A stretch of 29,819 nt of DNA from a virus. The position numbers were made by a program, and so were the translations under genes. Position 1 is the first letter of the stretch. Each line of letters opens with the position of its first letter. The stretch spans positions 1 through 29,819 of the IMG/VR virus record IMGVR_UViG_3300046516_001118; one strand, 5' to 3'. A model generated the notes under the pieces. The model saw only the letters and a list, made by a program, of their open reading frames with translations. It ran no database searches and had not been told where the DNA came from. Positions 7,949 through 29,819 of this stretch are shown piece after piece.

Positions 7949-9055
7949 ATGTCAGGGCAAGCACACTGCGCGCCAATCTTGGCTACGCACCCTAACATAC
8001 TCATTTCGCCTGACCAAGTGATTTTACTTGGCGAGCTCTCGCGCCTCCTCCTCGAGCTCGCCGGCGGGGTGCAGGTGCGCCCGGTGGGCCTCGCGGAGTG
8101 GCGGGAAACGGCGCTGGCGGCCTGCGCGGGGCGGTCGCGGTCCTATCGCGATCGGGTCGGCCAGGCGCTGGCCGAGGCGGTCGCCCTGGCCGGGCCGGGG
8201 GCATCCACGGCCGCCCTGACGCCGGAGCTGGTCGCCAAGCTGGCGGCCAGGGCCGGGGCGGCGGCGACCACGAATGGCCTGCTAAGGGCCCTGCGGACGG
8301 CCTGCGGGCTCGCGGCGGATCGGGGGTGGTTGGTGCGGGGGTCGCTCGAGCGGGCGGCCTGGAGGGTTTACCAGGGGCCGCAAACGAGGGCGAGGCATCA
8401 TCCGCGTGAGGCGGTGGCCAGGGTCCTGGGGTCGCTCGAGGAGGGGCGGGCGAGCTGGGAGGGGGGGAGGCTGCATGCGCTGGCTTGCTGCTATGCGTAC
8501 ACCGGCCTCCGGCTGCGCGAGGCCCTGCGCCTCGAGGTCGGCGACCTCGACCTCGACCGGGGGTTTGTGTTCGTCAGGCCGGGGAAGGATCTCAAGACGG
8601 CGCGGTCGGCCGCGCCGGTGCCCTGCCCGCGGGCGCTGGTCGAGGTCCTCGAGGGGTGGGTCGGCCGGGCCGGGGGGCGCTGGGTGTTTCCCAATCTTGG
8701 GAAAACCGGGCCGTGGGGTGGGGGGACTTTCGGCAAGCGCCCGACCGATCGCCTGGTCGCCGCCGGCCTGGCCGTGGGGGTCGCCGGGTTCACCCCGCTA
8801 TCCCTCCGGCATTCGCTGGCCACGCACTATGCCGGGTACTGGGGACTATCGGACAAACAGATTCAGCAAATCCTCCGCCACACAACCGTCATGACCCAAG
8901 CGCACTATGTGCATGCCGACCTCGCGAACCTCGCGGAGCTGGTCGAGGGGTTTCGGTTCGACTCGCCGGAGCCGGCCAGGGGGCGGCGGCGGAGGCCGCC
9001 GCGGCGGGGCCGGGGCGGGCCGAGGAGGCGGCGGCCGGGGGTGGGGACGGGTTAG
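7949..9055 (+). CDS. int: Tyrosine-recombinase integrase
   Basis: 368 residues from the ATG at 7949; the ribosome site is weak and the start uncertain. Residues 1-140 form the arm/core-binding region. The catalytic domain shows TGLRLREALRL (Arg188), the beta-hairpin Lys in GKDLKTAR (Lys216), LRHSLATHY (Arg287), LRHTTVMTQAHY (His311) and the nucleophile Tyr320. The first His of the usual HxxR box is replaced: the sequence is TPLSLRH rather than TPHDLRH. The last 30 residues are an Arg/Gly/Pro-rich tail whose DNA is duplicated at 9263-9317. The enzyme should recombine the tRNA-Ile core at 7822-7863 with the host tRNA gene. Confidence 0.9.
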   Translation: MSGQAHCAPILATHPNILISPDQVILLGELSRLLLELAGGVQVRPVGLAEWRETALAACAGRSRSYRDRVGQALAEAVALAGPGASTAALTPELVAKLAARAGAAATTNGLLRALRTACGLAADRGWLVRGSLERAAWRVYQGPQTRARHHPREAVARVLGSLEEGRASWEGGRLHALACCYAYTGLRLREALRLEVGDLDLDRGFVFVRPGKDLKTARSAAPVPCPRALVEVLEGWVGRAGGRWVFPNLGKTGPWGGGTFGKRPTDRLVAAGLAVGVAGFTPLSLRHSLATHYAGYWGLSDKQIQQILRHTTVMTQAHYVHADLANLAELVEGFRFDSPEPARGRRRRPPRRGRGGPRRRRPGVGTG

Positions 9056-9317
9056 ACGGCGGTAGTGGAGAAGGGAGGCGGGACGATGCAAATGCCAGCT
9101 TATGCGACCTACTGCATTGCGGTGTGGGATTGCGAGGCGCAGCGGTGGGAGATCCGGTCAGAGGGCGTGACACCCCGCGGGCTACGTGAGGAGATCCGCC
9201 GGCTACGGTCGGACGGGTGGACGAGCGTCAGTGTGCTAATCGAGGGCGAGGACTGAGATGGGGCGGCGGGGCCGGGCCGGGCCGCGGAGGCGGCGGCCGG
9301 GGGGGGGGAGGGGTTAG
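9001..9317 (+). repeat. 55-bp direct repeats flanking a small gene (9001-9055 and 9263-9317)
   Basis: The last 55 bp of the integrase gene, including its TAG, recur at 9263-9317 with 51 of 55 identities and no net length change. The intervening 207 bp hold one small gene (9086-9256). This is the signature of a cassette bracketed by a duplicated gene end. Confidence 0.7.
9086..9256 (+). CDS. Small hypothetical protein between integrase-end duplications
   Basis: 56 residues from the ATG at 9086 with GGGAGG 7 nt upstream, a strong site. The protein has a beta-strand pair (ATYCIAVWDCEAQRWEIRSE) and a helix (RGLREEIRRLRSDGW) ending VSVLIEGED. The family is not recognised. It lies in a segment bounded by duplicated copies of the integrase 3' end, so it is probably acquired cargo. 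Confidence 0.6.
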   Translation: MQMPAYATYCIAVWDCEAQRWEIRSEGVTPRGLREEIRRLRSDGWTSVSVLIEGED

Positions 9318-9320
9318 GTT

Positions 9321-9686
9321 GAGCTGCTCGACCTGCTCGAGGACCTCGGCGGTACCGGAGCTGCGCGAGGACCTCGCCGGCGAGCTGGTCGGCGCGGAGC
9401 TGCTCGACCTGCTCGAGGACCTCGCCGGTACCGGAGCTGCGCGAGGACCTCGCCGGCGAGCTGGTCGGCCCGGAGCTGCTCGACCTGGTCGAGGACCTCG
9501 CCGGTACCGGAGCTGCGCGAGGACCTCGCCGGCGAGCTGGTCGGCCCGGAGCTGCTCGACCTGGTCGAGGACCTCGGCGGTACCGGAGCTGCGCGACGAC
9601 CTCGCCGGCGAGCTGGTCGGCCCGGAGCTGCTCGACCTGGTCGAGGACCTCGCCGGTACCGGAGCTGCGCGAGGACCTCGCCGGCG
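9321..9686. repeat. 76-bp tandem repeat, about 4.8 copies
   Basis: Copies begin at 9321, 9397, 9473, 9549 and 9625 with an exact 76-bp period. Each contains several palindromes: CGAGGACCTCG, CCGGTACCGG and CTCGCCGGCGAG. The period is not a multiple of 3, so it is not a protein repeat. It fills the gap between the converging integrase region and the end of the late operon. 9687-9807 shows no further feature. Confidence 0.85.
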
Positions 9687-9807
9687 GGGTCCTCGGCCGG
9701 GGGTGGGCCCTGCCCTGCTCGGGTGGGGGGGCGGCCTCGAGGGTGGGGGAGGGGTGCAGGGTTTCGCCGATCGGAGGAATCGGCGCGGTAGGGGTTGCGC
9801 GGGTTGC

Positions 9808-10041
9808 CTATGCCGCGGATTCGACGTCCTCGCCGAGTTGCAGGCGGAGGGCGGCGGGAATGGTGGGCCGGCTGACTCCTTTGAGGGCCGGAGTCATCAA
9901 CCGGATGACGAGTTCGCACGGGTCGATACCCAGATCGGCCGCGGTGGAGTCGATGAGACGTCTCAACCGGCGGGGAAGGGTATAGGTGACCTTGTCCTTC
10001 GGTTCCTTCGGTCGACTGGTCGACGGGTCTTTTCCGGCCAT
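9808..10041 (-). CDS. Putative ribbon-helix-helix regulator
   Basis: 77 residues from the ATG at 10041 with GGAGG 8 nt upstream. After a polar tail, DKVTYTLPRRLRRLIDSTAA followed by DLGIDPCELVIRLMTPAL has the strand-helix-helix pattern of CopG/Arc-type DNA-binding proteins. It is the final gene of the leftward late operon and might act in regulation; targets are unknown. Confidence 0.55.
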   Translation of the reverse strand: MAGKDPSTSRPKEPKDKVTYTLPRRLRRLIDSTAADLGIDPCELVIRLMTPALKGVSRPTIPAALRLQLGEDVESAA

Positions 10042-10102
10042 TGCTCGCGCCTCCGCCCTGGTCACAATTCCGCCCTATGACCTATCGGCGCGGAGGGGAT
10101 CC

Positions 10103-10330
10103 CTACTCCACATCGCCGGCGTCAATCGCGGCGAGGGTCCGCTCGAGCTCGAGGGCGTCGGGATCGTGGGGGGCGAGCTGGCGGGCGGTGATGACGATGA
10201 CCTCGCCGGCGGCGGTGCGGTAGAGAATGCGGCCGGGGCGCCAGGCGATCGAAACATCGCGCGGGAGCGCCCTGCCCGCCATCAGGGCGGCCATGACGGA
10301 TTTGAGCGTGATGTGGGCGATCGATTCCAC
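10103..10330 (-). CDS. Small hypothetical protein
   Basis: 75 residues from a GTG at 10330 (AAGGA 8 nt upstream). A longer frame to 10387 overlaps the upstream gene more and lacks a site. An N-terminal helix (SIAHITLKSVMAALMAGRAL) precedes a beta-hairpin (VSIAWRPGRILYRTAAGEVI), with an acidic helical end. The family is not recognised. It is coupled to the 10335-10568 gene. Confidence 0.5.
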   Translation of the reverse strand: MESIAHITLKSVMAALMAGRALPRDVSIAWRPGRILYRTAAGEVIVITARQLAPHDPDALELERTLAAIDAGDVE

Positions 10331-10334
10331 GGGA

Positions 10335-10568
10335 TCATTCCTTGGTCGGCGGGGCGGAAACCTCGGTGCCGGGGACCAGCATACCAAACCGGCGGCGGAG
10401 TTTGGCGTCGAGCCGGTTCAAGAGCTCTTGGCGCTGGGGACATCCGCAATCGACGCCGATCTTGTCGGCAAGCCAGAATGCGGCGCGGTCGACGCCGAGG
10501 CGGTGAGTGAGCTCGGAGACGAGGTCGCCGGCGAGGGGGACCTGGGCGAGGTATTCGAGCGGGGTCAT
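10335..10568 (-). CDS. Small late protein with DCGCPQRQELLN motif
   Basis: 77 residues. The core LGVDRAAFWLADKIGVDCGCP followed by QRQELLNRL matches a short Cys-containing segment (CGGCxxRxxxLN-like) often seen in small phage proteins near tail-tip or lysis genes. The role is unknown. It lies in the late operon 14 nt after the Ig-like tail protein. Confidence 0.6.
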   Translation of the reverse strand: MTPLEYLAQVPLAGDLVSELTHRLGVDRAAFWLADKIGVDCGCPQRQELLNRLDAKLRRRFGMLVPGTEVSAPPTKE

Positions 10569-12633: not shown

Positions 12634-12639
12634 AGACGG

Positions 12640-12827
12640 CCTCGAGGGTGACCAGGCCGCCGGCGAGGTCCTCCGGCAGGGCCAGGGCCTCGAGGGTGAC
12701 CAGCTCGCCGGCGAGGTCCTCCGGCAGGGCCCAGGGCCTCGAGGGTGACCAGGCCGCCGGCGAGGTCCTCCGGCAGGGCCCAGGGCCTCGAGGGTGACCA
12801 GGCCGCCGGCGAGGTCCTCGGCCGGTG
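12640..12827. repeat. 48/49-bp tandem repeat, 4 copies
   Basis: Copies begin CCTCGAGGGTGACCAG at 12640, 12688, 12737 and 12786, each followed by CGCCGGCGAGGTCCTC. It lies between the tape-measure stop (12828) and the dispersed repeat. The periods of 48 and 49 do not keep a reading frame. The CGCCGGCGAGGTCCTC core recurs inverted in the 76-bp repeats at 9321-9686. Confidence 0.8.
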
Positions 12828-14537
12828 TCAGATCGTGAAAGTGGCCAGGCCGTGGGCCTCGGTTTTGCCGCGGGCGGCGATTTCTTTGATGGCCTGGGCC
12901 ATGTTCTTGGTGTGCTTGGCGGTTTCCTTGGTGGCGGCGGCGGTTTCTTTGGCCTCGGTGCCTCCGCCCTGGTTCAGGAATCGGGCGATCGAGGAGCCGG
13001 CCTCGGAGGAGCCGATCTCGGCGGCGGCGACACCCTTGTAATCGCTGGGTTTCGGTAGGGGCTTTTCCTTGGCGGCCTCGGGTTTGGCGGGGCCGGGGAG
13101 TTTGGCGGTGGCGCGGGCCTTGACGCGGGCGGCGGTGCGGTTGGCAATGCGCTCGCCGGCGGCGTCGATGTCGGCTTGCAAGGAGACGAGCGGGGGTTTG
13201 ATCATTTCGGGGAGCGCGGCCAGGGCGGGTTCGAAGCCCTCGAGGAGAGGTTTCCAATCGAACACGAATCCGCCGGCCGGGTTCTTGAGGAACTGGTAAA
13301 ACGAGTTCGCGAGCTCGCCGAGGTTAGTCGCGAGGTTCTGAAATTCGATGCGGATGCCATCGATTGTCGTGGTGATGATGTCGCGCCAGTTGGTGGCGAT
13401 GTAATCGGCGACCAGGCCGAGGTTAGAGGCCATCGTTTCGATGTGGACGATGACGTTAGCAATCTTCTCGGCGACGATGAGCTGGAAGATCGTGACATAG
13501 TCGCCGGCGCTGGCGAGGGTGTCGGAGACTGTAAAAAAGGTGTTGGTGATGGCATCGGCCCATCCTTGGAGCATCGGCCTATTGTCCTCGAACACCGTAA
13601 TCAGGGTGGCGAGGAGCTCATTGAATCCGCCGATCGCGGCGGTGACCATCGGCATTAACATCGTGCCGACGGTGGTGGCGAAGTTGGCGAGGCCGCCCTC
13701 GGATTTGCGGAACTGGTTCGCCGCGGAATCCTGGGTGCGGGCGAGGTCGCCGGTGGCGGTGGCGAGGCCCTTGGTGATGAGGCTGGCGCGGGCGGCGACC
13801 TTGGCCGATTCGTCGAGCTTGCCGCTACCCTTGGCGAGGCCCATTCGCATCGCCTCGGCCTGGACGGCGGTTTCACTGAGGAGGACGCCGAACGCGCGGA
13901 GGGGTTCGGCCTCGCCGATGAGGCCGGAGCGGATTTTCTCGAGGGCCGAATCCATCGGGACGTTGTAGAAGCTGCTGGCGTCGGCGGCGAGGTTGACGAG
14001 CTGGTTACTGAGGGCGGCGGCGGCCTGGGTGCTCGAGCCGCTACCCTTGGCGATGAGGCCGATACTCGCGGCGGCGTCGAGGAGCTCGCCCTTGGGGAGG
14101 CCGAACGCTTTGGCCATCTTATCGGCGTTGGAGACGACGCTGTCGGTCTGGGCGCCGAAAACCTCGCCGGTCTTGGCCAGGGTTTCGCCGAGGTTGACGG
14201 CGCCCTTGATTCCACTCGTGAAGAATCCGACGACGGCCGAGGTTGCTTTGTAAATGACTCCGACAACGCCCAGGGCGGCGGCGATCTGGAGGCCCATGGC
14301 GCGGATCGAGGGGATCGCGGTGCGGGCCGCGGTGCCCACACTGCCGACACCCTTTGCCAGGTTCGCGGCGCCGGCGGTGGGGGCGGCCATGTTGACCCGG
14401 CTGAGGTCGCCCATCGGGTTAGCGCGCGCGAGGCCGCGCAGGCTGTCGCTCGCCATGCGGACTTGCCGGACGAATGTCGCGCTGTCGAATTTGACGCCGA
14501 TCACAATTGTGCGGTTGATCGAGGAATTCAGGGCCAT
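12828..14537 (-). CDS. Tail tape-measure protein
   Basis: 569 residues from the ATG at 14537. The N-terminus is NSSINRTIVIGVKFDSATF, then Ala/Gly-rich helices. Hydrophobic stretches occur around residues 80-115 (LQIAAALGVVGVIY; AVVGFFTSG) and 290-320 (TVGTMLMPMVTAAIGGF). Long amphipathic helices with few Cys follow, and a Lys/Ala-rich C-terminus (TKETAKHTKNMAQAIKEIAA). This composition, its size and its place after the frameshifted tail chaperone identify the tape measure, which fixes tail length. At roughly 0.15 nm per residue the tail would be about 85 nm (inference). The ribosome site is poor and the upstream DNA is a CRISPR array. Confidence 0.88.
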   Translation of the reverse strand: MALNSSINRTIVIGVKFDSATFVRQVRMASDSLRGLARANPMGDLSRVNMAAPTAGAANLAKGVGSVGTAARTAIPSIRAMGLQIAAALGVVGVIYKATSAVVGFFTSGIKGAVNLGETLAKTGEVFGAQTDSVVSNADKMAKAFGLPKGELLDAAASIGLIAKGSGSSTQAAAALSNQLVNLAADASSFYNVPMDSALEKIRSGLIGEAEPLRAFGVLLSETAVQAEAMRMGLAKGSGKLDESAKVAARASLITKGLATATGDLARTQDSAANQFRKSEGGLANFATTVGTMLMPMVTAAIGGFNELLATLITVFEDNRPMLQGWADAITNTFFTVSDTLASAGDYVTIFQLIVAEKIANVIVHIETMASNLGLVADYIATNWRDIITTTIDGIRIEFQNLATNLGELANSFYQFLKNPAGGFVFDWKPLLEGFEPALAALPEMIKPPLVSLQADIDAAGERIANRTAARVKARATAKLPGPAKPEAAKEKPLPKPSDYKGVAAAEIGSSEAGSSIARFLNQGGGTEAKETAAATKETAKHTKNMAQAIKEIAARGKTEAHGLATFTI

Positions 14538-14583: not shown

Positions 14584-14847
14584 ACTTCCACGGCCTGGAG
14601 GGCGTGGCCCCATTGAAGCATGCCGATGACAATCGTGCGGTTGATCCTGCTGTTCTTTTCCACGCCCTTCGGGGCGTGGCCCCATTGAAGCGTGGCGGAG
14701 AGTGTCTCCAAGAGGTGTGAAGCGCCACTTTCCACGCCCTTCGGGGCGTGGCCCCATTGAAGCTAAAAACGCTTCGCGTCGAATTCAAGGTCGACGTATT
14801 TTCCACGCCGTAGGGCCCAGCGCCTTACGGCGTGGCCCCATTGAATC
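14584..14847. CRISPR. Phage-borne CRISPR mini-array, 4 repeats and 3 spacers, no cas genes
   Basis: Repeats of 36 nt at 14584-14619 (degenerate), 14656-14691 and 14728-14763 (identical except the first base), and an elongated one at 14799-14847. Plus-strand repeat: TTTCCACGCCCTTCGGGG, then CGTGGCCCCATTGAAGC; CCACGCCC and GGGCGTGG form an 8-bp stem with a TTCG loop. Spacers are 14620-14655 (36), 14692-14727 (36) and 14764-14798 (35). The three spacers are unrelated to one another. The 3' ATTGAAGC resembles the usual 8-nt crRNA handle and favours plus-strand transcription, but direction is not certain. No cas gene is in the window. Confidence 0.9.
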
Positions 14848-15772
14848 ACTTCTCTCCATTCTGCTCACTCCTCGAGCCGTCGATGGCCGCGGCGGCGACC
14901 AGTACCAGGCGGGCGCGGCGATCGGTGTCGGAGGCGGCGACGGCGTAGCGGCTCGAGCTGAAAATCTGGGTGGGGCGGAAGGTGGCGAGGAGGCGGCGGA
15001 GCTGGGGGAGGCTCGAGGCGTATTCGCAGGCGCGGGTGAAGAAACCTTTCGGGTCGCTGAATTCCAGGCGGGGGTCGAGGACCAGGAGGTGAGAGCGCTC
15101 GGCCGCGGTGAGGGGTGTCAGGGTGACCTTGCCGGAATGGGCGGTCGCCTCGGCGAGGATGTAGCGGAGGAGCTTGTCGGAGGTCGCCTTTTCTTGCTTC
15201 GTCGCTTCGACGAATCGGGAGACGCCGGCGGCATCATCCTCGTAATGGCCCTCGGCGAGCTCGGTGAGGGTGTAGCGCAGGCGGAGGGTGGGGGAGCTGG
15301 TGATCTCGCGGGCGACCAGGGCGACGGCCTGGGCGCGGGCGAGGGGTGCGTCGGCCTCGGTGTTGGTGCCGTCGGGTGGGGCGGCGGAGAGGGCGTCGAG
15401 GATTTCCTCGGTGCCGGCGAACAGGGTGAGAGAGAGCTGGTCGCGGAGCTGATACAGGGTTTCGTGATCGGGTTCGCCGGCGGCGTCGGGGATGACGATG
15501 CGCGGGTTCTCAGGTTTCTTCTTGCGCCGCCAGAATTCGGCGGTGAACGCGCGGAACAGCGCGGACTTGGCGCGGGCCTTGACCTGGTCGTGGCGCTTGC
15601 CGACCTCTTTGGCGACCACGCCCAGGCCGATCATTTCGGCGACCTCGGCGAGCTCGGCGGGGGCGAGCTCGAGGGCGCGGTGTTGCGCGGGGACTTGCCG
15701 CGGCGGGGCCGGGGTCGCTGCTTTATGGGCCTGGTCGAGGAGACTCGGGAGGGCCGTTTTGGTTCTGGACAC
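14846..15772 (-). CDS. Tail-module protein of unknown function
   Basis: 308 residues, between the tail assembly chaperone and the tape measure. It is mostly helical and Ala/Leu-rich, with a basic segment KRHDQVKARAKSALFRAF and RRKKK near residues 60-85 and a long regular helical C-terminal half. No family is recognised; position suggests tail assembly. Its first 15 residues (RTKTALPSLLDQA) are shared with the XF1762-family gene upstream because the underlying 62 bp are duplicated. Its TGA stop overlaps the last CRISPR repeat. Confidence 0.6.
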   Translation of the reverse strand: MSRTKTALPSLLDQAHKAATPAPPRQVPAQHRALELAPAELAEVAEMIGLGVVAKEVGKRHDQVKARAKSALFRAFTAEFWRRKKKPENPRIVIPDAAGEPDHETLYQLRDQLSLTLFAGTEEILDALSAAPPDGTNTEADAPLARAQAVALVAREITSSPTLRLRYTLTELAEGHYEDDAAGVSRFVEATKQEKATSDKLLRYILAEATAHSGKVTLTPLTAAERSHLLVLDPRLEFSDPKGFFTRACEYASSLPQLRRLLATFRPTQIFSSSRYAVAASDTDRRARLVLVAAAAIDGSRSEQNGEK

Positions 15773-16310
15773 GGGTGCGGGGTCCTTTCGCTTTCCTACT
15801 GTGCTTCCCAGCGAAATTTTCCTTGTAACGGGTGCTTGTCGACCCGCGGGCGATTAGCTCGCGACCACGATCCGCCGCGGGTTTCCCCCAGACATTTCCA
15901 ACCCGCGGCAATAAGGCTCGTACCCGGTTCGGTATCGAGTATGAAGGTGATCAATCGGGAATAACCGAGGGCTTTTGTGGCTCGCCATGCCGCCGCATAA
16001 AGCGCTGAACACGCATTAGGGCATCCGTCGGTTGCCAGGCGAATAACCTCGAGCGTCAATCCGTTGTCAAGCATCCTTCCTACTGGGCGACTCATAATCG
16101 CGACGCCGCGGATTTGTTCACGGTCGTCTACAACGGCGAGAGAAAATTTGTGTCCTGTCGCGGAAAGGTGGTGGCGGTGATGGCGCCGGACAAAAGTATT
16201 TGCTTCATTCAACTCACAAGGAATTATCCGCAAGCGCGATTGCTTAACGGCCTGGTCGAGGAGACTCGGGAGGGCCGTTTTGGTTCGGGTCACGGGTGCG
16301 GGATCCTTTC
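15728..16310. repeat. 62-bp direct repeats flanking the XF1762 gene (15728-15789 and 16249-16310)
   Basis: The two 62-bp copies share 59 of 62 positions. On the minus strand each carries, in one frame, the chaperone C-terminus (NQNGPPESPRPG) and, in another, the start RTKTALPSLLDQA of the next gene. The repeat therefore preserves both overlapping frames at each end of the inserted segment. Confidence 0.85.
15796..16293 (-). CDS. XF1762-family (GNAT-like) phage protein
   Basis: 165 residues. From residue 21 the protein follows the XF1762-family pattern: LRIIPCELNEANTFVRRHHR, GHKFSLAVVDDREQIRGVAI, SRPVGR, LEVIRLATDGCPNACSALYA, AWRATKALGYSRLITFIL, EPGTSLIAAGWKCLGET and GGSWSR. These proteins have a GNAT-like fold, but the reaction is not established. 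The first ~18 residues are not part of the family; they come from a copied start of the downstream gene. The gene lies inside the tail operon, bracketed by 62-bp direct repeats, and is best read as a cargo insertion. Confidence 0.85.
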   Translation of the reverse strand: MTRTKTALPSLLDQAVKQSRLRIIPCELNEANTFVRRHHRHHLSATGHKFSLAVVDDREQIRGVAIMSRPVGRMLDNGLTLEVIRLATDGCPNACSALYAAAWRATKALGYSRLITFILDTEPGTSLIAAGWKCLGETRGGSWSRANRPRVDKHPLQGKFRWEAQ

Positions 16311-17026: not shown

Positions 17027-17473
17027 TTAACTGCCGGCGGTGAAGACGGGGAGGTCCGTCAATTTCAATTCGATATCGGCGCCGAGGTTGGATTTGACTT
17101 TCATCCCGTTCAGTTTGAACGACGTCAAGAACCCGTGAAAGGTGCATTTCGCGGGGGTGGTGTTGGTGTCGTTGAATTTGAGCTCGTAAGACTCGATGGC
17201 GCCGGGGGCGGTGGCATCGGTGATGAAAAGTTTATGGGTGGCGGTGTCGCTGGGATCGAACCAGATTTTCAGGGTGAGCTTGTCGGGTTCGGGAAAGAGG
17301 CTCGGCCGGGAGATGATCAAGCCGGTGGTCATCGCGGTCGAGTCGATGGCCTCGACCATAACCTCCGGGCCGTCGATCTCGGTGACCTGGGCGACCGGGG
17401 TCATGGTGGTCGCGATCTCCACACTGAGGATTGTTCCTTCGCCGGGGATGACCAGGGCGTCGACGGTGGGCAT
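17027..17473 (-). CDS. Major tail (tube) protein
   Basis: 148 residues. It starts GEGTILSVEIATTMTPVAQV and continues with beta-rich segments (TLKIWFDPSDTATHKLFITD, AIESYELKFNDTNTTPAKCT, FHGFLTSFKLNGMK). This is the pattern of siphovirus tube proteins of about 150 residues, and the gene sits between the tail terminator and the tail chaperone, as expected. It would polymerise into the tail tube around the tape measure. Confidence 0.82.
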   Translation of the reverse strand: MPTVDALVIPGEGTILSVEIATTMTPVAQVTEIDGPEVMVEAIDSTAMTTGLIISRPSLFPEPDKLTLKIWFDPSDTATHKLFITDATAPGAIESYELKFNDTNTTPAKCTFHGFLTSFKLNGMKVKSNLGADIELKLTDLPVFTAGS

Positions 17474-17488
17474 TGGGTTCGTCCTTCT

Positions 17489-18007
17489 CTACGCGCTTGC
17501 GTTTACGTTCGTGGGCCTCGACTCGCGGAGTTTGAACGTGAAGGGGAGCTCTTTCCAGTAGATGCCGATATCAGAACCGGAGATAGGTTCGTCGTAACCG
17601 TCATCTTCGGTGTCGAAGAAAACGCGGATGATCGGGAGGCCGTCGAGCTCGCCGGCGAAACCCTGAAAGAAATTGCGGAGGACCTCGCGGCCGGATTCGA
17701 TATCCGCGTGATTGTAGGAGGAGACGCGAAACAAGATGCTCACGTAGCGGATGCCGGCCGGGGCGGTGAGGGTGTCGTCATGCTGGCTGTCGGACATTTG
17801 ATAGGTGAGGGTCGCCGCGCCCATCGGCGAGGACTGGGGGATGATGACCGGGTAAATCCGGTTGCCGAACAGGGCCGCGGCGGCGGGGTCGGCCTCGAAT
17901 GCGGCGAGGAGTGCCAATTTGAGGTCCTCGAGGATGGGCGGGGCCGGGACGGGTGCCGGCCGCGACTTGTTGAACCGGAGCCGGTTGAATCGCGCGGTAT
18001 TCAGCAT
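17489..18007 (-). CDS. Tail terminator / completion protein (DUF3168-like)
   Basis: 172 residues. ILEDLKLALLAAFEADPAAA, ALFGNRIYPVIIPQSSPMGA and ATLTYQMSDSQH fit the small tail-completion family (DUF3168 or gpU-like) that caps the tube. Its beta-rich second half (YVSILFRVSSYNHADIESGR; GIYWKELPFTFKLRE) is typical. It sits immediately upstream of the tube gene. The opening NTARFNRLRFNK loosely echoes the N-terminus of the next protein upstream (FNRHRYN). Confidence 0.75.
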   Translation of the reverse strand: MLNTARFNRLRFNKSRPAPVPAPPILEDLKLALLAAFEADPAAAALFGNRIYPVIIPQSSPMGAATLTYQMSDSQHDDTLTAPAGIRYVSILFRVSSYNHADIESGREVLRNFFQGFAGELDGLPIIRVFFDTEDDGYDEPISGSDIGIYWKELPFTFKLRESRPTNVNASA

Positions 18008-18013
18008 GGGCTC

Positions 18014-18475
18014 TCAGGTCGTGAGGATCGCGCCCAGGAGCAATGAGGCCGCCGCGCACGAGCAATAGAGCGCGGTGACATCGGCGGTGAAGGGGTTCGG
18101 GAAGAGGCCGGCGGAGGCGTTCCAATACAGGGGCATTCCGGCTTTCAAGGTGATCGTGTTCGCCGGGGCCGTGGGGCTGTTTGTTTTGATCGTGAGGTCG
18201 GCGGTGGCGAGGAGGTAGAGCGCCTGGGTGCGGGCGACTGACCAGGCCGTGGGGATGACCACGTTGGAGGAGCCGGAAAAGAAGTTGCGAGAGAGGTCGA
18301 TCGACCTCCTCCCCGTTTCGGTGAAAGAGCGTTTCAGGCGGGTGCCGTCGGTTCCGGCGATCGCCACACTGAGGGCGTAATTGACGGTGGCCAGGTTGGT
18401 TCCCGGGGCGATGGGCGGGATGCCGATGCCGCCGAGGGCCGATCCGGGGCCGTTGTAGCGGTGGCGGTTGAACAT
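18014..18475 (-). CDS. Putative structural protein, paralog of 20983-21414
   Basis: 153 residues. The core NYALSVAIAGTDGTRLKRSF, TETGRRSIDLSR, TIKTNSPTAPANTITLKAGM, NASAGLFPNPFTADVTALY and the ending GAILTT are all matched in order by the product of 20983-21414. It is likely a beta-structured virion or decoration component because of its place among tail completion genes. No named family is recognised. The FNRHRYN N-terminus replaces the hydrophobic N-terminus of its paralog. Confidence 0.6.
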   Translation of the reverse strand: MFNRHRYNGPGSALGGIGIPPIAPGTNLATVNYALSVAIAGTDGTRLKRSFTETGRRSIDLSRNFFSGSSNVVIPTAWSVARTQALYLLATADLTIKTNSPTAPANTITLKAGMPLYWNASAGLFPNPFTADVTALYCSCAAASLLLGAILTT

Positions 18476-18481
18476 CGCGCG

Positions 18482-18823
18482 TTAGTACGGCTTGGCGACC
18501 ATCATCTCGAGGAGGACGCGATAGGTCGGGAGGCCGGTATCGCCGGCGACGTTGGTGTCGAGAAAGGCGCTGATCGCCGGGGCGGCCTGTTGCAAGAGGA
18601 CGTTGGCATGGTAGGCGTCGAGGTGGTTCAGGGGCGTCGGCGGTGGGCCGCCGAAATTGCTGGGCGGCGGGGTCTCAAAAATTGGGTCGACGAAGTTGCC
18701 GCCGGCCTGGGCCAGGAGGCCGGCATCTTGCAAGAGAGCGGCGACCGCGCCGAGGATCGCCGCGGCCTGGGTGACCGAATCGGCGCCGATCGAGAGTAGT
18801 TTGTTGGTGTAGTCTTGGGCCAT
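18482..18823 (-). CDS. Hypothetical protein in tail module
   Basis: 113 residues. An Ala/Leu-rich N-terminal helix pair (VTQAAAILGAVAALLQDAGL) is followed by a Pro-rich linker (ETPPPSNFGGPPPTPLNHL) and a second helical region with AAPAISAFLDTN and TYRVLLEMM. It resembles small structural proteins but is not recognised. It is 6 nt upstream of the 18475 start, so cotranslation is likely. Confidence 0.5.
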   Translation of the reverse strand: MAQDYTNKLLSIGADSVTQAAAILGAVAALLQDAGLLAQAGGNFVDPIFETPPPSNFGGPPPTPLNHLDAYHANVLLQQAAPAISAFLDTNVAGDTGLPTYRVLLEMMVAKPY

Positions 18824-18844
18824 GAATCGCCTCGAGTCTAGAGG

Positions 18845-19612
18845 TTAAACCACTGCGCCGGAGGCGTCGCGCCAGGCGCTGCCGTCCCACCAAATTGGTT
18901 TGTGGAGGGTTGCGTCATACCACTGGTCGCCGGCGGTGCGGCCGGTCGGCCGGGAGCCGGTCGCGCCGGTGCCGGTCCTGAACGTGTTCGGGACGCTAAC
19001 GCTGTTATCGTTTGCGGTGATATAGATTCCGTAAGCGCCGAGAACCAGATTGAAGACACCGTAATCGCCGGATACTGAAGCAATCGACCAGACTTGTGCG
19101 CCGTTCGCTCGATTGGTCAGTGTGACCCCTGCATTTGGGCCGGTCGTTGAAAAGCCCTGGGCGATCATGCCGCCGGTGGTCATGTTCGTCGCGGTGAAGG
19201 TGTTGCCATCCCAGACGGGGCCTCCGCCGGCAAAGGCGCCGGCGCTGTTGAATTGAATGTCGTGCGTGGTGCCGCCGGGGGAGTGCGATTCGATGCCGGC
19301 CTGGAGTTCGTCGATCGTCGCCTTGCATACCCGGATCTGCACGACCACGCCGGCGGCGAGGTTCACGTCAGAGTAACCGGCCGCGGCGGTGAGGCCGGTC
19401 AGGGCGAGGCCGGCGCGGCCGGTGGATTGAAACACGCCGAGGATGACCTCGGTGGGGGTGTCGGGATTGGTGCAGGCGGTGAGGCGATAGATCCGATTCG
19501 CCGGGAGCGTCGGCAAGCCGTTCAGCGCGGCGAGGACGAGCTGGCCATCGCCGGCGGTGTGGGCGGTGCCGACGGTGCTTGACCAGTTGTCGACGGCCAG
19601 GCCGTAGGGCAT
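18845..19612 (-). CDS. Putative tail fibre / virion surface protein
   Basis: 255 residues. The N-terminal 130 residues are small and beta-rich. A central segment (THDIQFNSAGAFAGGGPVWD, then GNTFTATNMTTGGMIAQGFS) looks like a trimeric fibre shaft. The end, GSRPTGRTAGDQWYDATLHK followed by PIWWDGSAWRDASG, is a motif common at the ends of phage fibre-like proteins. It may be a receptor-binding or decoration protein. Location within the head-tail completion genes is unusual for a fibre. Confidence 0.65.
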   Translation of the reverse strand: MPYGLAVDNWSSTVGTAHTAGDGQLVLAALNGLPTLPANRIYRLTACTNPDTPTEVILGVFQSTGRAGLALTGLTAAAGYSDVNLAAGVVVQIRVCKATIDELQAGIESHSPGGTTHDIQFNSAGAFAGGGPVWDGNTFTATNMTTGGMIAQGFSTTGPNAGVTLTNRANGAQVWSIASVSGDYGVFNLVLGAYGIYITANDNSVSVPNTFRTGTGATGSRPTGRTAGDQWYDATLHKPIWWDGSAWRDASGAVV

Positions 19613-19614
19613 TG

Positions 19615-20007
19615 TCAGAGAGCTCCAAGGAGGCGGTCGAGCTCCGACCGGGCGAAAACGAATTCCCGGGGGAGGCGTTTGTCAGCCTGCTTTTCGGCGA
19701 CCTCGATTGTGTAGGCGCGGGAATGGTCGAGGGCGGCCTCGTGACTACCGTAGCGGGTGCGGTCGGGGCCGCGGGTGGTGCCGCGCTTCGGGTTCAACAC
19801 CGATATCCACCCGGTCTCACCCTTGGCGGGGAGGGTGGCCGCGGCGAGCTTCTTGCCGACCCGGTGCAGGGTGACCTTGCCGCGGGTGTATTCGCCGATG
19901 CGCACTCCGCGCGGTTTCTCGGCGACCGCGGCGGCGGCCTGGGCGGGGAGCCGCTCGAGGCGGTCGAGGAGTTTGACGGCCTCCTCGAGGCCGGCGATGA
20001 CGATCAT
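19615..20007 (-). CDS. HK97 gp10-like tail completion protein
   Basis: 130 residues from the ATG at 20007; the longer upstream frame is Ser-rich and implausible. IAGLEEAVKLLDRLERLPAQ followed by AAAAVAEK resembles the N-terminal helix of HK97 gp10-type proteins, and the middle has strands with GKVTLHRVGKKL and WISVLNPKRGTTRGPDRTRY. The order closure protein, gp10-like, tail terminator, tube matches HK97-like phages, though extra genes lie between them here. Confidence 0.55.
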   Translation of the reverse strand: MIVIAGLEEAVKLLDRLERLPAQAAAAVAEKPRGVRIGEYTRGKVTLHRVGKKLAAATLPAKGETGWISVLNPKRGTTRGPDRTRYGSHEAALDHSRAYTIEVAEKQADKRLPREFVFARSELDRLLGAL

Positions 20008-20026
20008 GTCAGGGGAATCCCCATCA

Positions 20027-20206
20027 TTACCCTTGGATGACGAATCCGAACACTTTCCATCCGAGGAGGAATAGCAGAATGAACAGGAGGAGGTTTCCGC
20101 CAAGGATGCCGAATCCGGCCGGGCCTGGTTGGGAGGGCCAATTCCAGTACAGGCCGAACACGAACCAGAGAATCATGAGGAGCCAGAAGAGAAAACCGAG
20201 TGTCAT
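20027..20206 (-). CDS. 59-residue two-helix membrane protein (holin candidate)
   Basis: ATG at 20206 is preceded by GGAGG at 7 nt, an ideal site, and overlaps the upstream stop as ATGA. The product is almost wholly hydrophobic: LGFLFWLLMILWFVFGLYW, a Pro/Gly turn (NWPSQPGPAGFGILGG), then LLLFILLFLLGWKVFGFVI and a short tail. Two transmembrane helices and tiny size suit a holin, antiholin or small virion membrane protein. It sits beside another two-helix membrane protein. Confidence 0.65.
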   Translation of the reverse strand: MTLGFLFWLLMILWFVFGLYWNWPSQPGPAGFGILGGNLLLFILLFLLGWKVFGFVIQG

Positions 20207-20565
20207 GGGGGGTCCTCCGGCGGGGACTGCTGCGCGTGCTGCCGCTTGTGTTCTTCCTGGTTGGCGAGGATCACATCGACCCGCTTTGCGGTTTCGTCGA
20301 GGTGGGCGGCGACCTGGTCGACCACGCCGCGGAGGTCCTTACGCATCTTGTCGCGATACTCCAACCATAATCTGAGTGCCGGGATCGCTACGCCACCAAA
20401 GAGGCCGGTCAGGGCGGTAACGATCGCGATAATGGCGACCTGCACACCCTGAACCGGGTCGACCACGTTTGCGGCGGCCAACATACCAGCAACAAAGCCG
20501 GTGAATGAGCCGACGTAACATAGTCCCATGAATGCCTTGTGTATGAGGGATCCGGTGAGGAACAT
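20203..20565 (-). CDS. Membrane protein with two helices and a coiled-coil tail (holin-like)
   Basis: 120 residues from the ATG at 20565. Two hydrophobic segments (FMGLCYVGSFTGFVAGMLAA; VAIIAIVTALTGLFGGVAIP) are followed by a charged helical tail (DKMRKDLRGVVDQVAAHLDE, AKRVDVILANQEEHKRQ) likely to form a coiled coil. This is the general shape of class II holins. The start could be one of several close Met codons. No endolysin is recognised next to it. Confidence 0.6.
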   Translation of the reverse strand: MFLTGSLIHKAFMGLCYVGSFTGFVAGMLAAANVVDPVQGVQVAIIAIVTALTGLFGGVAIPALRLWLEYRDKMRKDLRGVVDQVAAHLDETAKRVDVILANQEEHKRQHAQQSPPEDPP

Positions 20566-20572
20566 CGGGCCG

Positions 20573-20983
20573 TCAATCTTCGGTTGCGCGGAGGGTCCGG
20601 TCGGGATCTGATACCGTCGGCCCTGACGTTGCCGAGGCCGGTGGTGGGGCGATGATCGCCATCGCGCCGTGATCCCAGAGGTTGGCGGCGACCCGACACC
20701 CCATTGCGAAAATCTGGGCCTCGAATGAGGGCGAGGTGATGACCTGCGAGGCGTTGGCCTCGAGGGCGTTGAACACGGCGCCGACACCTTGCGGGGCGCT
20801 GGCGTTGATAATTCCCCATAGCGCATTCATATCGATGCGGGGTTCAAGGAGGACGATCAACGGGTTGAGGCCGGCGGCGATCGGGATGAGCGTCGCGGGT
20901 GCTATCGCGGCCTTTTGCTGGGCCAGGAGGAATGAGCTGTGATATTTGGGCATCTCGAGGAACGACATTGGAATCGGGCCCAT
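20573..20983 (-). CDS. Hypothetical protein in head-tail completion region
   Basis: 136 residues from the ATG at 20983, which overlaps the preceding stop (TGATG); a Met at 20968 is an alternative. It has an N-terminal SSFLLAQQKAAIAPATLIPI stretch, a helical middle (DMNALWGIINASAPQGVGAV; SFEAQIFAMGCRVAANLWDH) and a polar tail. The family is not recognised. Confidence 0.5.
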   Translation of the reverse strand: MGPIPMSFLEMPKYHSSFLLAQQKAAIAPATLIPIAAGLNPLIVLLEPRIDMNALWGIINASAPQGVGAVFNALEANASQVITSPSFEAQIFAMGCRVAANLWDHGAMAIIAPPPASATSGPTVSDPDRTLRATED

Positions 20984-21414
20984 CAGGTGGTGAGGATCGA
21001 ACCTTGCAAGAGAGCCGCGGCGGTGCAGGTGACGTAGAATCCCGTCACATTGGTGGTGAATGGGTTCGGGTAATACCCTGCGCTCGCATCCCAGATCAGG
21101 GGGACGCCGGCGACCAGGTTTATGGTGTTGCCGGGGGAGGTCGGGGAGTTCGTTTTGATCGTCATATTCGAGCTCGAGACCAAGAAAATCGCCTGGGTGT
21201 TGGCGACTGTCCAGGCCGCGGCGACCAGTACATTGACGGAGCCGGCGGAGAGGTTTTTGGCGATGTCGATGGAGGTGGTGCCGGTTTCGGTGAAACTACC
21301 GTTGATGCGGGTCCCGTCGGTTCCACTCACGCCGATGGAAAAGGCATAGTTGATGCCGATGACGCCGAGGTAGAGGAGGCAGTACAGAGTGATTCCGGCG
21401 AGGCAGTAAATCAT
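20983..21414 (-). CDS. Putative structural protein, paralog of 18014-18475
   Basis: 143 residues. It begins with a hydrophobic stretch (LAGITLYCLLYLGVIG) that could be a signal anchor, then the same core as the 18014 product: NYAFSIGVSGTDGTRINGSF, TETGTTSIDIAK, TIKTNSPTSPGNTINLVAGV, DASAGYYPNPFTTNVTGFY and ending GSILTT. Two diverged copies in one 30-kb phage argue for duplication and separate roles. It lies between the head closure protein and the small membrane proteins. Confidence 0.6.
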   Translation of the reverse strand: MIYCLAGITLYCLLYLGVIGINYAFSIGVSGTDGTRINGSFTETGTTSIDIAKNLSAGSVNVLVAAAWTVANTQAIFLVSSSNMTIKTNSPTSPGNTINLVAGVPLIWDASAGYYPNPFTTNVTGFYVTCTAAALLQGSILTT

Positions 21415-21761
21415 GGGTTCGCGGGCGGGCCGACCTCCTGAACGAGGAGCTGGTATTCCTTGTGGCGGTTGTCGACGTCATTCACCCACAGGATGTTATA
21501 GATCGATCCATTGAAAATCAGGCGCATCGAGGGGAGGAGGCCGGGGGTCGGGAAAAGGGTGCCGAGGTAGCGCATGCGAACGGAATGGGTGACCGCGGCG
21601 GATATCTGCTTGGCGTTGACGGCCTCGCGACCGGCGAGGTTATGGACCTCGGCCCAATAGATTCCGGCCGGATTCCAGCTCGGTTGCATTTGTCCGTACT
21701 GGTCGCGGGTCTCGGTGAGGGTCTGCACCGTGACGCGCTGGCGCATCGGGCCTGCCCTCAT
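21411..21761 (-). CDS. Head-tail closure (head-tail joining) protein
   Basis: About 116 residues from the ATG near 21761 (MRAGPMRQRVTVQTLTETRD). An alternative start six residues later gives MRQRVTVQ. Typical SPP1 gp16-like features follow: DQYGQMQPSWNPAGIYWAEV, LAGREAVNAKQISAAVTHSV, RMRYL and SIYNILWVNDVDNRHKEYQL. These proteins close the portal after packaging. It overlaps the next gene slightly, consistent with a coupled operon. Confidence 0.78.
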   Translation of the reverse strand: MRAGPMRQRVTVQTLTETRDQYGQMQPSWNPAGIYWAEVHNLAGREAVNAKQISAAVTHSVRMRYLGTLFPTPGLLPSMRLIFNGSIYNILWVNDVDNRHKEYQLLVQEVGPPANP

Positions 21762-22006
21762 TTTGGTTTCACCCGGTAGACGTAGAACCGGAGGGCCTGG
21801 CCGTTGGATTTCGTCGAGCGCGCTTCGTAGGTTCGCATGGCGAACCGCTGGCCGATCAGAAGCGATAGCAGGCGGCGGCATCGGTTCGGGGTGAGGTCAT
21901 CGACGGCCGCGACCATTTCGGGGACGGTGAGGCCCTCGGGAGCGTTGCGGAGGGCGGTGCGCATGGTCTCGAGGAGAACTTTTTCCTCGGCGAGGGTCAT
22001 CATCAT
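21758..22006 (-). CDS. Small winged-helix-like protein
   Basis: 82 residues. Three consecutive ATGs (22006, 22003, 22000) are possible starts; GGAG from the duplicated DPGVYA junction precedes them. LLETMRTALRNAPEGLTVPE, MVAAVDDLTPNRCRRLLSLL and GQRFAMRTYEA have the helix-helix-wing pattern of small wHTH proteins. It sits directly after the methyltransferase and may belong to the core operon or the inserted unit. Function is unknown. Confidence 0.5.
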   Translation of the reverse strand: MMMTLAEEKVLLETMRTALRNAPEGLTVPEMVAAVDDLTPNRCRRLLSLLIGQRFAMRTYEARSTKSNGQALRFYVYRVKPK

Positions 22007-23010
22007 CAGGCATACACTCCGGGGTCGCCGGCGAGGTGGGCGAACAGGGGGCCGGGTGATTCGTCGGGTTTTGGCCGGGGAACCGGGGCGTGGGGGCGGT
22101 CGATTCGCCGCCTGGCCATTGCCAGATAGGCCGGGCTGAGGTCGCATCCAATACCGCGGCGGCCGAGGGCATTGGCGGCGAGGATGGTACTGCCTGCGCC
22201 GACGAATGGGTCGAAGACGATGCCGCCTTTCGGGCATCCGGCCTTGATGCATGTCGCCGCTAATTTCAGGGGCATCGTGGCGAAGTGAGCGCCCTTGAAT
22301 GGCTTCGGGCAGACGGTCCAGACGGAGCGGCGGTTGCGGCCGGACAATTCCTGGAATCGGAGGGTACTTTTTCCCGTCCCGTTTCTAGTTATGCCTGCCC
22401 GGGCCGCTTTATCGGGCTGCGGATATGTCACGTTCGTCTTTTCGCTGTATCGTTCCCGGATCGCCCCCGCGTCATAGTAATACCTTTCGTTTTTCGCCAG
22501 CAAAAACACGTACTCATGCGACTTCGTCGGCCGGTCGCGAACCGATTCCGGCATCGGATTGGGCTTGTGCCAGATGATGTCGCTTCTCAGGTACCATCCA
22601 TCGGCCTGGAGGGCGAACGCGACGCGCCAGGGGATGCCGATGAGGTCTTTGGGCTTGAGGCCGGGTGGCGTCGGCGCTGTCCTCTTTTCGCTTCGTGGAA
22701 TCATTCCACCGCGCCCGGTGGTATTGTCTTCCCGATGATCGATGGCGCCGCTTGAAGCGTAAGAGTCGCCCAGATTCAGCCAGCACGTCCCATCGTCGCG
22801 GAGTACCCGCCGCACTTCGCGAAACACGTCCACGATCGCGGCGACATAACCCTCGGGTGTTGGCTCGAGGCCGATCTGGCCGGCGATGCCATAATCCCGG
22901 AGGCCGAAATAGGGGGGAGAGGTTACCACACACTGGACCGATCGGTCGGCGAGGGGGATTGCCCTGGCATCCGACTTGAATAGCAGGTAGCCAATCCCGG
23001 TCGGGAGCAT
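22006..23010 (-). CDS. Solitary DNA methyltransferase (N4-cytosine/N6-adenine, beta-type order)
   Basis: 334 residues from the ATG at 23010. Catalytic motif IV is near the N-terminus (VVTSPPYFGLRDYG, residues 29-42) and the SAM-binding motif near the C-terminus (DPFVGAGSTILAANALG, from 267), the order seen in beta-type enzymes. TSPPY is typical of N4-cytosine enzymes, though N6-adenine activity cannot be excluded. WLNLGDSYASSG, SDIIWHKPNPMPESVRDRPT and KSHEYVFLLAKNERYYYD are the usual conserved blocks. No restriction enzyme is adjacent, so protection of phage DNA from host restriction is likely. It interrupts the connector genes and its C-terminus (DPGVYA) repeats the end of its upstream neighbour. 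Confidence 0.9.
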   Translation of the reverse strand: MLPTGIGYLLFKSDARAIPLADRSVQCVVTSPPYFGLRDYGIAGQIGLEPTPEGYVAAIVDVFREVRRVLRDDGTCWLNLGDSYASSGAIDHREDNTTGRGGMIPRSEKRTAPTPPGLKPKDLIGIPWRVAFALQADGWYLRSDIIWHKPNPMPESVRDRPTKSHEYVFLLAKNERYYYDAGAIRERYSEKTNVTYPQPDKAARAGITRNGTGKSTLRFQELSGRNRRSVWTVCPKPFKGAHFATMPLKLAATCIKAGCPKGGIVFDPFVGAGSTILAANALGRRGIGCDLSPAYLAMARRRIDRPHAPVPRPKPDESPGPLFAHLAGDPGVYA

Positions 23011-23031
23011 CAGGCGTAGACTCCGGGGTCG
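22006..23031. repeat. 22-bp direct repeats at both ends of the methyltransferase gene (22006-22027, 23010-23031)
   Basis: TCAGGC-TA-ACTCCGGGGTCG matches at 20 of 22 positions. On the minus strand each copy encodes DPGVYA-stop and supplies the GGAG used by the following start. The gene between them could therefore be gained or lost without disturbing either neighbour. Confidence 0.7.
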
Positions 23032-23849
23032 GTCGCCGAAATCAAAGCATCCACGGCCTGCGGAACCGGGTAGGTTTGCGCGTCGGCGACCTCCTCGCGG
23101 TGTTCGTACCAGTGCGCGACCATGAGGCGGCATGCGCTCTTCACGTTTTCGCTGACGCCGGCGGCGGTCGGATTGCCGGCGGTGAATTGGATGACCACGC
23201 CATCGATCTGCGGGCGGGCGACTGGCCAGACGTAGCCGATGAGGGGTTGGATCCGGGCGCCGAGGCCGGTACTGACAAAGTAGGTTGCGGGGTCGATCGT
23301 CTGGAGGACGCCGAGGGGGTCGAAGTATTTGACCGAGGCGACGGAGATGAGCGGGCGGGTCGGGAAATGGAGGATCGCCGCGCCGTTCGGGAGCCATTGG
23401 GGATTCGGGCCGCTCTGGCGGATAAGCCGGTTGTAATAGCCGTTCGCCGAGGCGGGGAAACCATCCATGTACCAGTTGAACGTTGATTGGAGGATCGTTG
23501 CGCGGAGGAGGACCTCCGCGCGGAGCCGGGCGGAGTCGATCCACGAAACGATGAGGGAGTCATCATCGGGGATCTCGAGGCGGCATTGTTGTTTCGCCTC
23601 GGCCAGGGTGATCGGTTGCAGGGTGAAATTCAGGGACTGGGGGCCGGTCGCCGTGGCGGGCCTGGTCAGGGTGACTTGACCGCCATCGTCGATCGAATGG
23701 ACGAACGTCGACGGAGGGATACCCGGGCCGCGGACCTGGACGGCGCCGGCGAGCTCGGCGGTGACCAGGCCGGTGACCGTGGGGGAGCCGGTCGCCAGAG
23801 TGCCTAGCTGGGCGACCACGGGGCCAGTGAGGAGTTCGAGGTGTTCCAT
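23010..23849 (-). CDS. Head-tail connector (phiE125 gp8 / gp6-like)
   Basis: 279 residues. From about residue 75 it follows the connector pattern: PITLAEAKQQCRLEIPDDDS, LIVSWIDSARLRAEVLL, PLISVASVKYFDPLGVLQTI, VVIQFTAGNPTA and SACRLMVAHWYEHREEV, ending VPQAVDALISATDPGVYA. Residues 10-70 are an extra beta-rich module (TVTGLVTAELAGAVQVRGPG) not usual in the family. Such proteins form the ring beneath the portal. The gene lies right after capsid and a small protein, as expected. Confidence 0.82.
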   Translation of the reverse strand: MEHLELLTGPVVAQLGTLATGSPTVTGLVTAELAGAVQVRGPGIPPSTFVHSIDDGGQVTLTRPATATGPQSLNFTLQPITLAEAKQQCRLEIPDDDSLIVSWIDSARLRAEVLLRATILQSTFNWYMDGFPASANGYYNRLIRQSGPNPQWLPNGAAILHFPTRPLISVASVKYFDPLGVLQTIDPATYFVSTGLGARIQPLIGYVWPVARPQIDGVVIQFTAGNPTAAGVSENVKSACRLMVAHWYEHREEVADAQTYPVPQAVDALISATDPGVYA

Positions 23850-23855
23850 GCCTGG

Positions 23856-24065
23856 TTACTTCGTCGGTCGCTGGCGGGGTGATACGGCCTGCTCGCCGTG
23901 GGGGGGGGCGGTGGCCGTTTGGATCGGGTCGGGGCCGGAAACGGCAATGCCCTTGCCGGCCTTGACGTATGCCTCGGCGAGGCGCGGGGGGAATTCCACG
24001 ACCTCGCCCTTCTCTCGCCATCGATCGCCGACGAGGGCGCCGGTGGCCAGTCTGATAAACGGCAT
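23856..24065 (-). CDS. Small hypothetical head-module protein
   Basis: 69 residues from the ATG at 24065 (MPFIRLATGALVGDRWREKG). An AAGG-containing ribosome site precedes it. EVVEFPPRLAEAYVKAGKGI resembles short proteins found after capsid genes in siphoviruses. The C-terminus is Pro-rich and polar. In the preceding gap (24066-24129) a CCAGGAAG unit with a ribosome-site core occurs three times about 24 bp apart. Confidence 0.55.
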   Translation of the reverse strand: MPFIRLATGALVGDRWREKGEVVEFPPRLAEAYVKAGKGIAVSGPDPIQTATAPPHGEQAVSPRQRPTK

Positions 24066-24129
24066 TGGGGCGACCTTCCTGGGTTGCGGGGTGTGTCTTC
24101 CTGGATAGCGGGTGTGTCTTCCTGGGTGG

Positions 24130-25476: not shown

Positions 25477-25502
25477 TGGGGGACCTCGAGAGGGATGTTT
25501 CG

Positions 25503-27466: not shown

Positions 27467-27671
27467 GTTCGATTCGACGTTTTCGCGCTGCGCTCTCTCG
27501 TTCGACCAGGATGGAGATATCGTTTTCGTAGCCTCGACCGCGGAGCTCGCGGAGCGCTTGCCGGATAGACCACTTCGGGAGGCGGCGGTAGCGCACTCGC
27601 CAGGCCCAATCGTCTAGCGGCGATTGGCCGGGGTCGCGGGTCGATACGGAATAGGTGACGCGCCTGGTCAT
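27459..27671 (-). CDS. Small basic protein between terminase and portal
   Basis: 70 residues, start overlapping the terminase stop (TGATG) and end overlapping the portal start. It contains SPLDDWAWRVRYRRLPKWSI and RQALRELRGRGYENDISILV, then a basic tail. A short frame of this kind between the large terminase and portal occurs in several siphoviruses, but I know no function. Tight overlaps on both sides support it. Confidence 0.6.
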   Translation of the reverse strand: MTRRVTYSVSTRDPGQSPLDDWAWRVRYRRLPKWSIRQALRELRGRGYENDISILVERESAARKRRIEHE

Positions 27672-29762: not shown

Positions 29763-29776
29763 ATAATCTCGCGACT

Positions 29777-29805
29777 ATCCAAAAAACAACCCGGAATCCT
29801 GTCAA
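29777..29805 (-). promoter_or_regulatory. Possible late-operon promoter
   Basis: On the minus strand TTGACA (29805-29800) is followed after 17 bp by TTGGAT (29782-29777), 15 bp upstream of the small terminase ATG. The -35 is perfect, the -10 poor. Only 57 bp are visible upstream of the operon, so a better promoter may lie outside. Confidence 0.3.
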
Positions 29806-29819
29806 CGTGTGCGTAAAGG

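Follow-up and report, generated by a model that had tools for sequence, protein, structure and literature searches.

The closest described counterparts of the locus analyzed here are the mini-arrays of the archaeal portoglobovirus SPV1/SPV2, which are directed against close relatives (Medvedeva et al. 2019, PMC6858448). These arrays have host-type leaders, and their exact mutual targets have been found; the reason why targets lie so close to the array was described as unexplained in the same study. As summarized in PMC6858448 and PMC7099407, a survey of phages and prophages (Faure et al. 2019) reported leaderless arrays, some of whose spacers match adjacent genes of relatives and not of the carrier. 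A 2024 review treats inter-virus competition by mini-arrays as established (PMC11656645), and phages are also known to carry cas-less repeat mimics, the RNA anti-CRISPRs or Racrs (Camara-Wilpert et al. 2023, PMC10651486). Virus-borne mini-arrays against relatives, with spacers aimed near the array, are thus already published. Within the open-access literature, we found no report of such arrays in planctomycete phages, which is weak evidence.

Here, we describe an array in a virus record of 29,819 bases (this whole stretch is termed the window herein). With a probability of roughly three in four, we propose that positions 14584-14847 are a virus-borne mini-CRISPR array that uses the type I-G CRISPR-Cas system of the host and is aimed at close relatives. 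Like the SPV1/SPV2 arrays, it is short, cas-less, and intergenic, with a spacer that resembles a site near the array and is probably aimed at relatives, and with a mutated copy of the presumed target in the carrier itself; with the leaderless phage mini-arrays of the Faure et al. survey, as far as they are summarized in the above articles, it shares an adjacent-gene spacer that is probably directed against close relatives. It differs from SPV1/SPV2 in that it is found in a bacterial siphovirus, has a type I-G repeat, three spacers, and diverged terminal repeats, and yielded no exact target. Repeats of this I-G family are also found singly, in the manner of Racrs, whereas the window locus has true spacers between its repeats.

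A cas-less array between two tail genes

The carrier is a temperate virus, probably of planctomycete-like bacteria. Head-tail genes of the window form a minus-strand module, and a tyrosine integrase and a protein with a DnaB-like helicase domain are also encoded. The array, on the plus strand, sits between the tape-measure gene and the adjacent tail gene, both on the minus strand:

12828-14537, minus strand: tape-measure protein gene (tblastn to annotated phage tape-measure proteins, E down to 3e-32)
14491-14493, plus strand: TTG immediately before (5′ side) the carrier's counterpart to the spacer 1 target, agreeing with the TTN PAM of type I-G (sequence; PAM according to PMC9638904)
14494-14529, plus strand: carrier's homologue of the spacer 1 target (codons 4-15)
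14584-14847, plus strand: cas-less CRISPR array with four repeats and three spacers
14584-14619, plus strand: repeat 1, degenerate (86% to the consensus; fold −11.5 kcal/mol)
14620-14655, plus strand: spacer 1, homologue of tape-measure gene codons 4-15 (28/36 bases, 10/11 residues)
14656-14691, plus strand: repeat 2, with an 8-bp stem, a UUCG loop, CCCC, and the handle ATTGAAGC
14692-14727, plus strand: spacer 2, without significant match
14728-14763, plus strand: repeat 3, equal to repeat 2 over 35 nt
14764-14798, plus strand: spacer 3, with the minus-strand frame YVDLEFDAKRF
14799-14847, plus strand: repeat 4, terminal, with an extended hairpin of 14 bp (fold −27.9 kcal/mol, z −5.6)
14846-15772, minus strand: tail-module gene upstream of the tape-measure gene

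Repeat 1 has one broken stem pair and retains an intact 3′ half and the 8-nt handle; in repeat 4, which reaches into the stop codon of the adjacent tail gene, the end of the handle is changed to ATTGAATC. The spacers are 35-37 nt long, and the motif GTGGCCCCATTGAA occurs four times in the window, always within the array (0.28 copies expected). A PADLOC scan recognized no Cas protein among ten window proteins, and no promoter matching the consensus turned up upstream of the array.

A sister phage (G001; 34,446 bases) shares the terminase (84%), a tail-tube-like protein (73%), and other genes with the window. Homologues of both genes flanking the array are present in G001 in the same order and within about 10 nt of each other, without an array, suggesting that the array was inserted in the carrier (or lost in G001). 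A further contig (L028; 12,722 bases) is identical to 17098-29819; because it stops short of the array, the array is known from one assembly only.

Type I-G repeat and probable host

The last 19 nt of the repeat (3′ end) were found at 24 loci in bacterial or archaeal genomes, at least 12 of them long arrays with a period of 71-76 nt; these loci belong to MAGs of Isosphaeraceae, other planctomycetes, Roseilinea, Anaerolineae, Burkholderiales, Deltaproteobacteria, and UBP9. Genes adjoining the arrays match the models Cas8g (5e-189), Cas56g (5e-139), Cas3g (3e-129), and Cas1g (2e-172), and their types are Cas8g/Csx17, Cas56g/Csb2 (Cas5-6g), Cas3g, and the type I-G Cas4-Cas1 fusion. In this subtype, described as the least well understood of type I, the repeat measures 36 nt, Csb2 cleaves 4 nt 3′ of the base of the hairpin, the handle has 8 nt, and the PAM is TTN (PMC9638904). 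The window repeat, with its hairpin followed by CCCC and, beyond the cut, ATTGAAGC, is an exact fit to the published processing site. By repeat identity and anatomy, we assign the window array to type I-G. At three loci (L008, L012, and L019), cas1 is followed by a codirectional array, which indicates that the plus strand of the window would be the transcribed strand.

The nearest repeat found, 2 bases off that of the phage, belongs to a type I-G array of an Isosphaeraceae MAG (G006), and no host array with an identical repeat was found. A homologous major capsid protein is encoded in 24 of 397 genomes from the class of this MAG (Planctomycetia). Seventeen of the 24 fall among the 45 genomes of its family, the best matches (57% and 50-51% identity) included, and prophage regions of several of the 24 are collinear with the window. 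We infer from these comparisons that the host is an Isosphaeraceae-like bacterium with a type I-G system.

Spacer 1 resembles the start of the carrier's own tape-measure gene

An earlier note on this DNA had reported that spacer 1 aligns without gaps to 14494-14529 (plus strand) with 28 of 36 identities, and we reproduced this match. The second-best site for spacer 1 in the whole window, both strands considered, reached 21 of 36, and shuffled versions of the spacer (n = 2,000) typically reached 20-22 and at most 26. Read on the minus strand in the frame of the gene, spacer 1 gives NSRINRTIVIG and the carrier NSSINRTIVIG, with 10 of 11 residues identical, again as reported; the base changes are indeed mostly synonymous, with four of the five changed codons silent and one not. 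The peptide score was 47, compared with 29.5 ± 3.1 for shuffles (0 of 150 reached 47) and 29 for the next-best match of this spacer in the window. Since the mismatches are mostly silent, spacer 1 appears to come from the coding sequence of a related phage, an origin that we regard as well supported.

The eight mismatches to the carrier copy are at positions 2, 9, 15, 28, 29, 31, 32, and 33, one of them in the seed. The proposal that these mismatches are enough to spare the carrier is plausible but insecure, as only three fall within the first 27 PAM-proximal bases. With 24 of these 27 bases matching next to a PAM, self-targeting or priming might impose a cost on the carrier; costs of this kind are discussed in PMC7099407.

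The start of the tape-measure protein of G001 is MPLNSSINRQIQIG, and G001 is the only sister for which this start is sequenced. Spacer 1 matches its DNA at 26 of 36 positions, preceded by TGG (not TTN), and G001 itself is not the target. For spacer 3, the best match of the frame YVDLEFDAKRF over ∼130 kb of phage sequence was a weak one, to codons 12-22 of the sister tape-measure gene (QIGLQFDSPSF); as a second spacer from a tape-measure start, spacer 3 was dropped, its score of 24 being suggestive though not significant.

Search for protospacers

A perfect copy of 14620-14655 was sought and found neither in IMG/VR nor in 50,697 phage records nor in the 397 genomes of the class of the Isosphaeraceae MAG. 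In IMG/VR, the exact 24-nt core of spacer 1 had no match, a wobble-degenerate pattern for INRTIVIG had three matches with no tape-measure gene among them, and the tape-measure protein as a query retrieved no relatives by pattern. Spacers 1 to 3 gave chance matches only against the phage records (E of at least 2 among the matches listed), and spacer 1 had no match with up to three mismatches in the 397 genomes. Prophages of that class, retrieved through their capsid homology and at best collinear with the window, had neither an array nor a better match to spacer 1. Cross-matching all mini-array spacers with the phage loci collected also gave no exact match. As no exact protospacer was found for any of spacers 1 to 3, the target phage is one that we infer. 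The earlier suggestion of a protospacer in a sister phage, which we consider largely right, is backed by the silent mismatches, the TTN PAM beside the carrier's copy, and the recurrence described below, and lacks the perfect protospacer itself.

Spacers resembling the gene next door in other phages

IMG/VR was scanned with the repeat motif, and every spacer was translated in six frames and compared with its own contig. The scans yielded further short arrays, likewise cas-less, and numerous repeats of this family that stand alone. In four arrays from four phage lineages, the best peptide match of a spacer was far above shuffles and always in the gene end beside the array: spacer 1 of the window (tape-measure start; score 47, 53 nt from the array edge), an L040 spacer (LTKFAPDASGVD) compared with the end of its own major tail protein (LTKFSPDAGGVE; score 50, 59 nt), an L089 spacer (KTKTCVWTAVFR) compared with the start of the adjacent gene (KTPLSVWTKIFR; score 40, 57 nt), and an L119 spacer (DWMCRQDFEPDT) compared with the end of the adjacent gene (DWMLRQDFEQDT; score 58, 37 nt). 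Each is the best match in its contig, and the chance of such closeness (37-59 nt) is ∼0.006-0.017 in each case. The three further spacers match their genes in frame, and many of the differences are silent. The L040 spacer is inverted relative to its gene, and 10 of its 13 mismatches are at third codon positions, as expected of a protein-coding homologue that has diverged. The L040 phage is distantly related to that of the window, with which it has head-tail genes in common; for L089 and L119, a nonsystematic comparison found no kinship. The triplets 5′ of these own copies, which are homologues and not the protospacers, agree with a TTN PAM in the carrier (TTG) and L040 (TTT) and deviate in L089 (CTC) and L119 (TGC), as does the TGG of G001.

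No convincing adjacent-gene match was found for the L042/L043 group, the L085/L087/L091 group, L106, L107, L108, L117, or spacers 2 and 3 of the window; the gene-next-door rule is therefore frequent and not universal. An apparent adjacency in L111 was discarded, since the match falls in an unrecognized neighboring spacer of L111 itself. Two spacers of one L111 array (about 310-520) are alike, with the core AAATCCTTCGGA, as though one target site were addressed in two allelic forms.

The recurrence bears on whether spacer 1 could have arisen in the carrier lineage by partial local duplication of the tape-measure start, the alternative named in the earlier note. The two copies lie in direct orientation at a distance of only 126 nt, as a duplication would leave them. 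The similarity, however, fills exactly one spacer between repeats, four of five changed codons are silent, and a noncoding duplicate would not diverge at wobble sites. The same relation to other genes in three other phage contigs, inverted in L040, makes local duplication unlikely still further, and we consider it extremely improbable. We likewise rejected a Campbell-type integration in which a host array would have entered through spacer 1: repeat 1 is indeed flanked by direct repeats (spacer 1 and the carrier's own tape-measure start), but their 126-nt spacing is not one repeat unit, and together with the inverted L040 spacer this means that no simple crossover explains all cases.

Guided Cascade can also repress genes through partial pairing, as in CreTA and scaRNA. 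By analogy, the array might guide Cascade to the carrier's own neighboring gene and repress it, and the partial match to that gene, which includes 7 of 8 seed bases and adjoins a TTG PAM, would suit such a role, as would the recurrence of adjacency in other arrays. The other own copies fit poorly, however: that of L040 has mismatches at positions 1, 3, and 6, that of L089 has six consecutive mismatches from position 6, and the L040 and L119 targets are gene ends, not promoters or starts. Moreover, the wobble-position mismatches of L040 fit a protein-coding homologue and not selection for pairing. We therefore regard cis-regulation as very unlikely.

Alternatively, the repeats could act as a Racr that mimics those of the host and titrates Csb2/Cas7, the spacers mattering little. 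The repeats of the mini-array are degenerate, and the same repeat family is found in phages as single units with no second repeat (L083, L090, L101, L123, and others), as described for Racrs in PMC10651486; against this, the window locus has four repeats with three spacers of the right length, its internal repeats keep handles and stems, and an in-frame adjacent-gene spacer, present in four arrays, is needless for titration. We consider this reading unlikely, although titration and targeting can coexist. Solitary type I-G-like repeats with no second repeat were seen in L083, L084/L092, L090, L101, L102, L103, L112, L120/L122, L123, and others, and are candidate type I-G RNA anti-CRISPRs.

In G416, G417, and G418 and in the L085/L087/L091 group, DNA of ∼74-86% identity carries arrays whose position is shared and whose spacers differ completely. 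This indicates that spacers are replaced rapidly; replacement at a fixed site is also known from SPV1/SPV2. In L085, L087, and L091, a hairpin with a T-run follows the array, and all three related phages have a second set of short direct repeats (ATCCCGCTTGAGGG) just upstream of it. Three repeats in L089 (2116-2290, equal to L098 7595-7771) have different but complementary stems (CCACCC/GGGTGG, CCACGCCG/CGGCGTGG, and CCGGGCCC/GGGCCCGG). These paired changes suggest selection for a hairpin in RNA processing, and the divergence possibly avoids spacer loss by recombination between repeats. In the viral contig L119, two arrays (8978-9381 and 10168-10277) are separated by ∼0.8 kb, and their stems vary in sequence; the segment that L119 spacer 1 resembles forms the end of the intervening gene (9392-10378).

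Proposed function of the mini-array

In the proposed use of the array against relatives, it would be transcribed on the plus strand, against the tail genes, and host Csb2 (Cas5-6g) would cut 4 nt 3′ of each hairpin to give crRNAs with the handle AUUGAAGC. Spacer 1 would have been acquired from the tape-measure start of a co-circulating relative, and in a coinfected or lysogenic cell, Cascade and Cas3 would destroy that relative, with the carrier spared by its 8 mismatches, one of them at seed position 2. Spacers 2 and 3 probably act in the same way against other elements. Speaking against this reading are the failure to find exact protospacers, a consensus promoter, or a host array with the identical repeat, the close and PAM-flanked copy in the carrier, the deviating triplets of L089 and L119, and the fact that most other spacers in such arrays resemble no adjacent gene.

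A bolder and quite improbable reading is that the array is a natural RNA-guided homing element. A spacer-guided cut in the chromosome of a relative, at the site orthologous to the array's own flank, would be repaired from carrier DNA, and the array would thereby be copied into the relative together with a cut-resistant allele. Free-standing homing endonucleases likewise spread by cutting and repair copying. If true, this would account for why, in four phage lineages, spacers are directed to a gene end that lies 37-59 nt from the array.

For the preferred reading, the significance lies in an inter-phage use of borrowed CRISPR among phages of planctomycete-like bacteria with type I-G. The main addition to published work is the gene-next-door geometry, seen in four independent cases across several phage lineages, which makes the open question of proximity testable: the four loci could separate recombination with a host spacer, linkage of the array to a resistant allele, and homing.

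Additional features of the window

A 67-nt direct repeat (93%) at 15723-15789 and 16244-16310 flanks a small ORF (15796-16293), whose first residues are nearly identical to those of ORF 14846-15772 (MSRTKTALPSLLDQA for 14846-15772 and MTRTKTALPSLLDQA for 15796-16293). The small ORF appears to have been inserted by recombination that duplicated its flanks; in G001, the two neighboring genes appear adjacent, without it. Two tandem repeats, at 9321-9686 (76 bp × 4.8, 97%) and 12638-12819 (49 bp × 3.7, 96%), have the motif GAGGACCTCGCCGG or its complement in common. Within the head-tail module, 18014-18475 and 20983-21414 are paralogous genes (58.5% identical over 123 residues). A DNA methyltransferase (22009-22980; N6_N4_Mtase, 3e-49) is encoded inside the morphogenesis module, and no restriction enzyme was recognized among the window proteins scanned. 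The protein encoded at 1112-2158 is a DUF5131 (phage Gp37/Gp68-like) protein that also matches the PADLOC candidate-defense models PDC-M41B and PDC-M30B.
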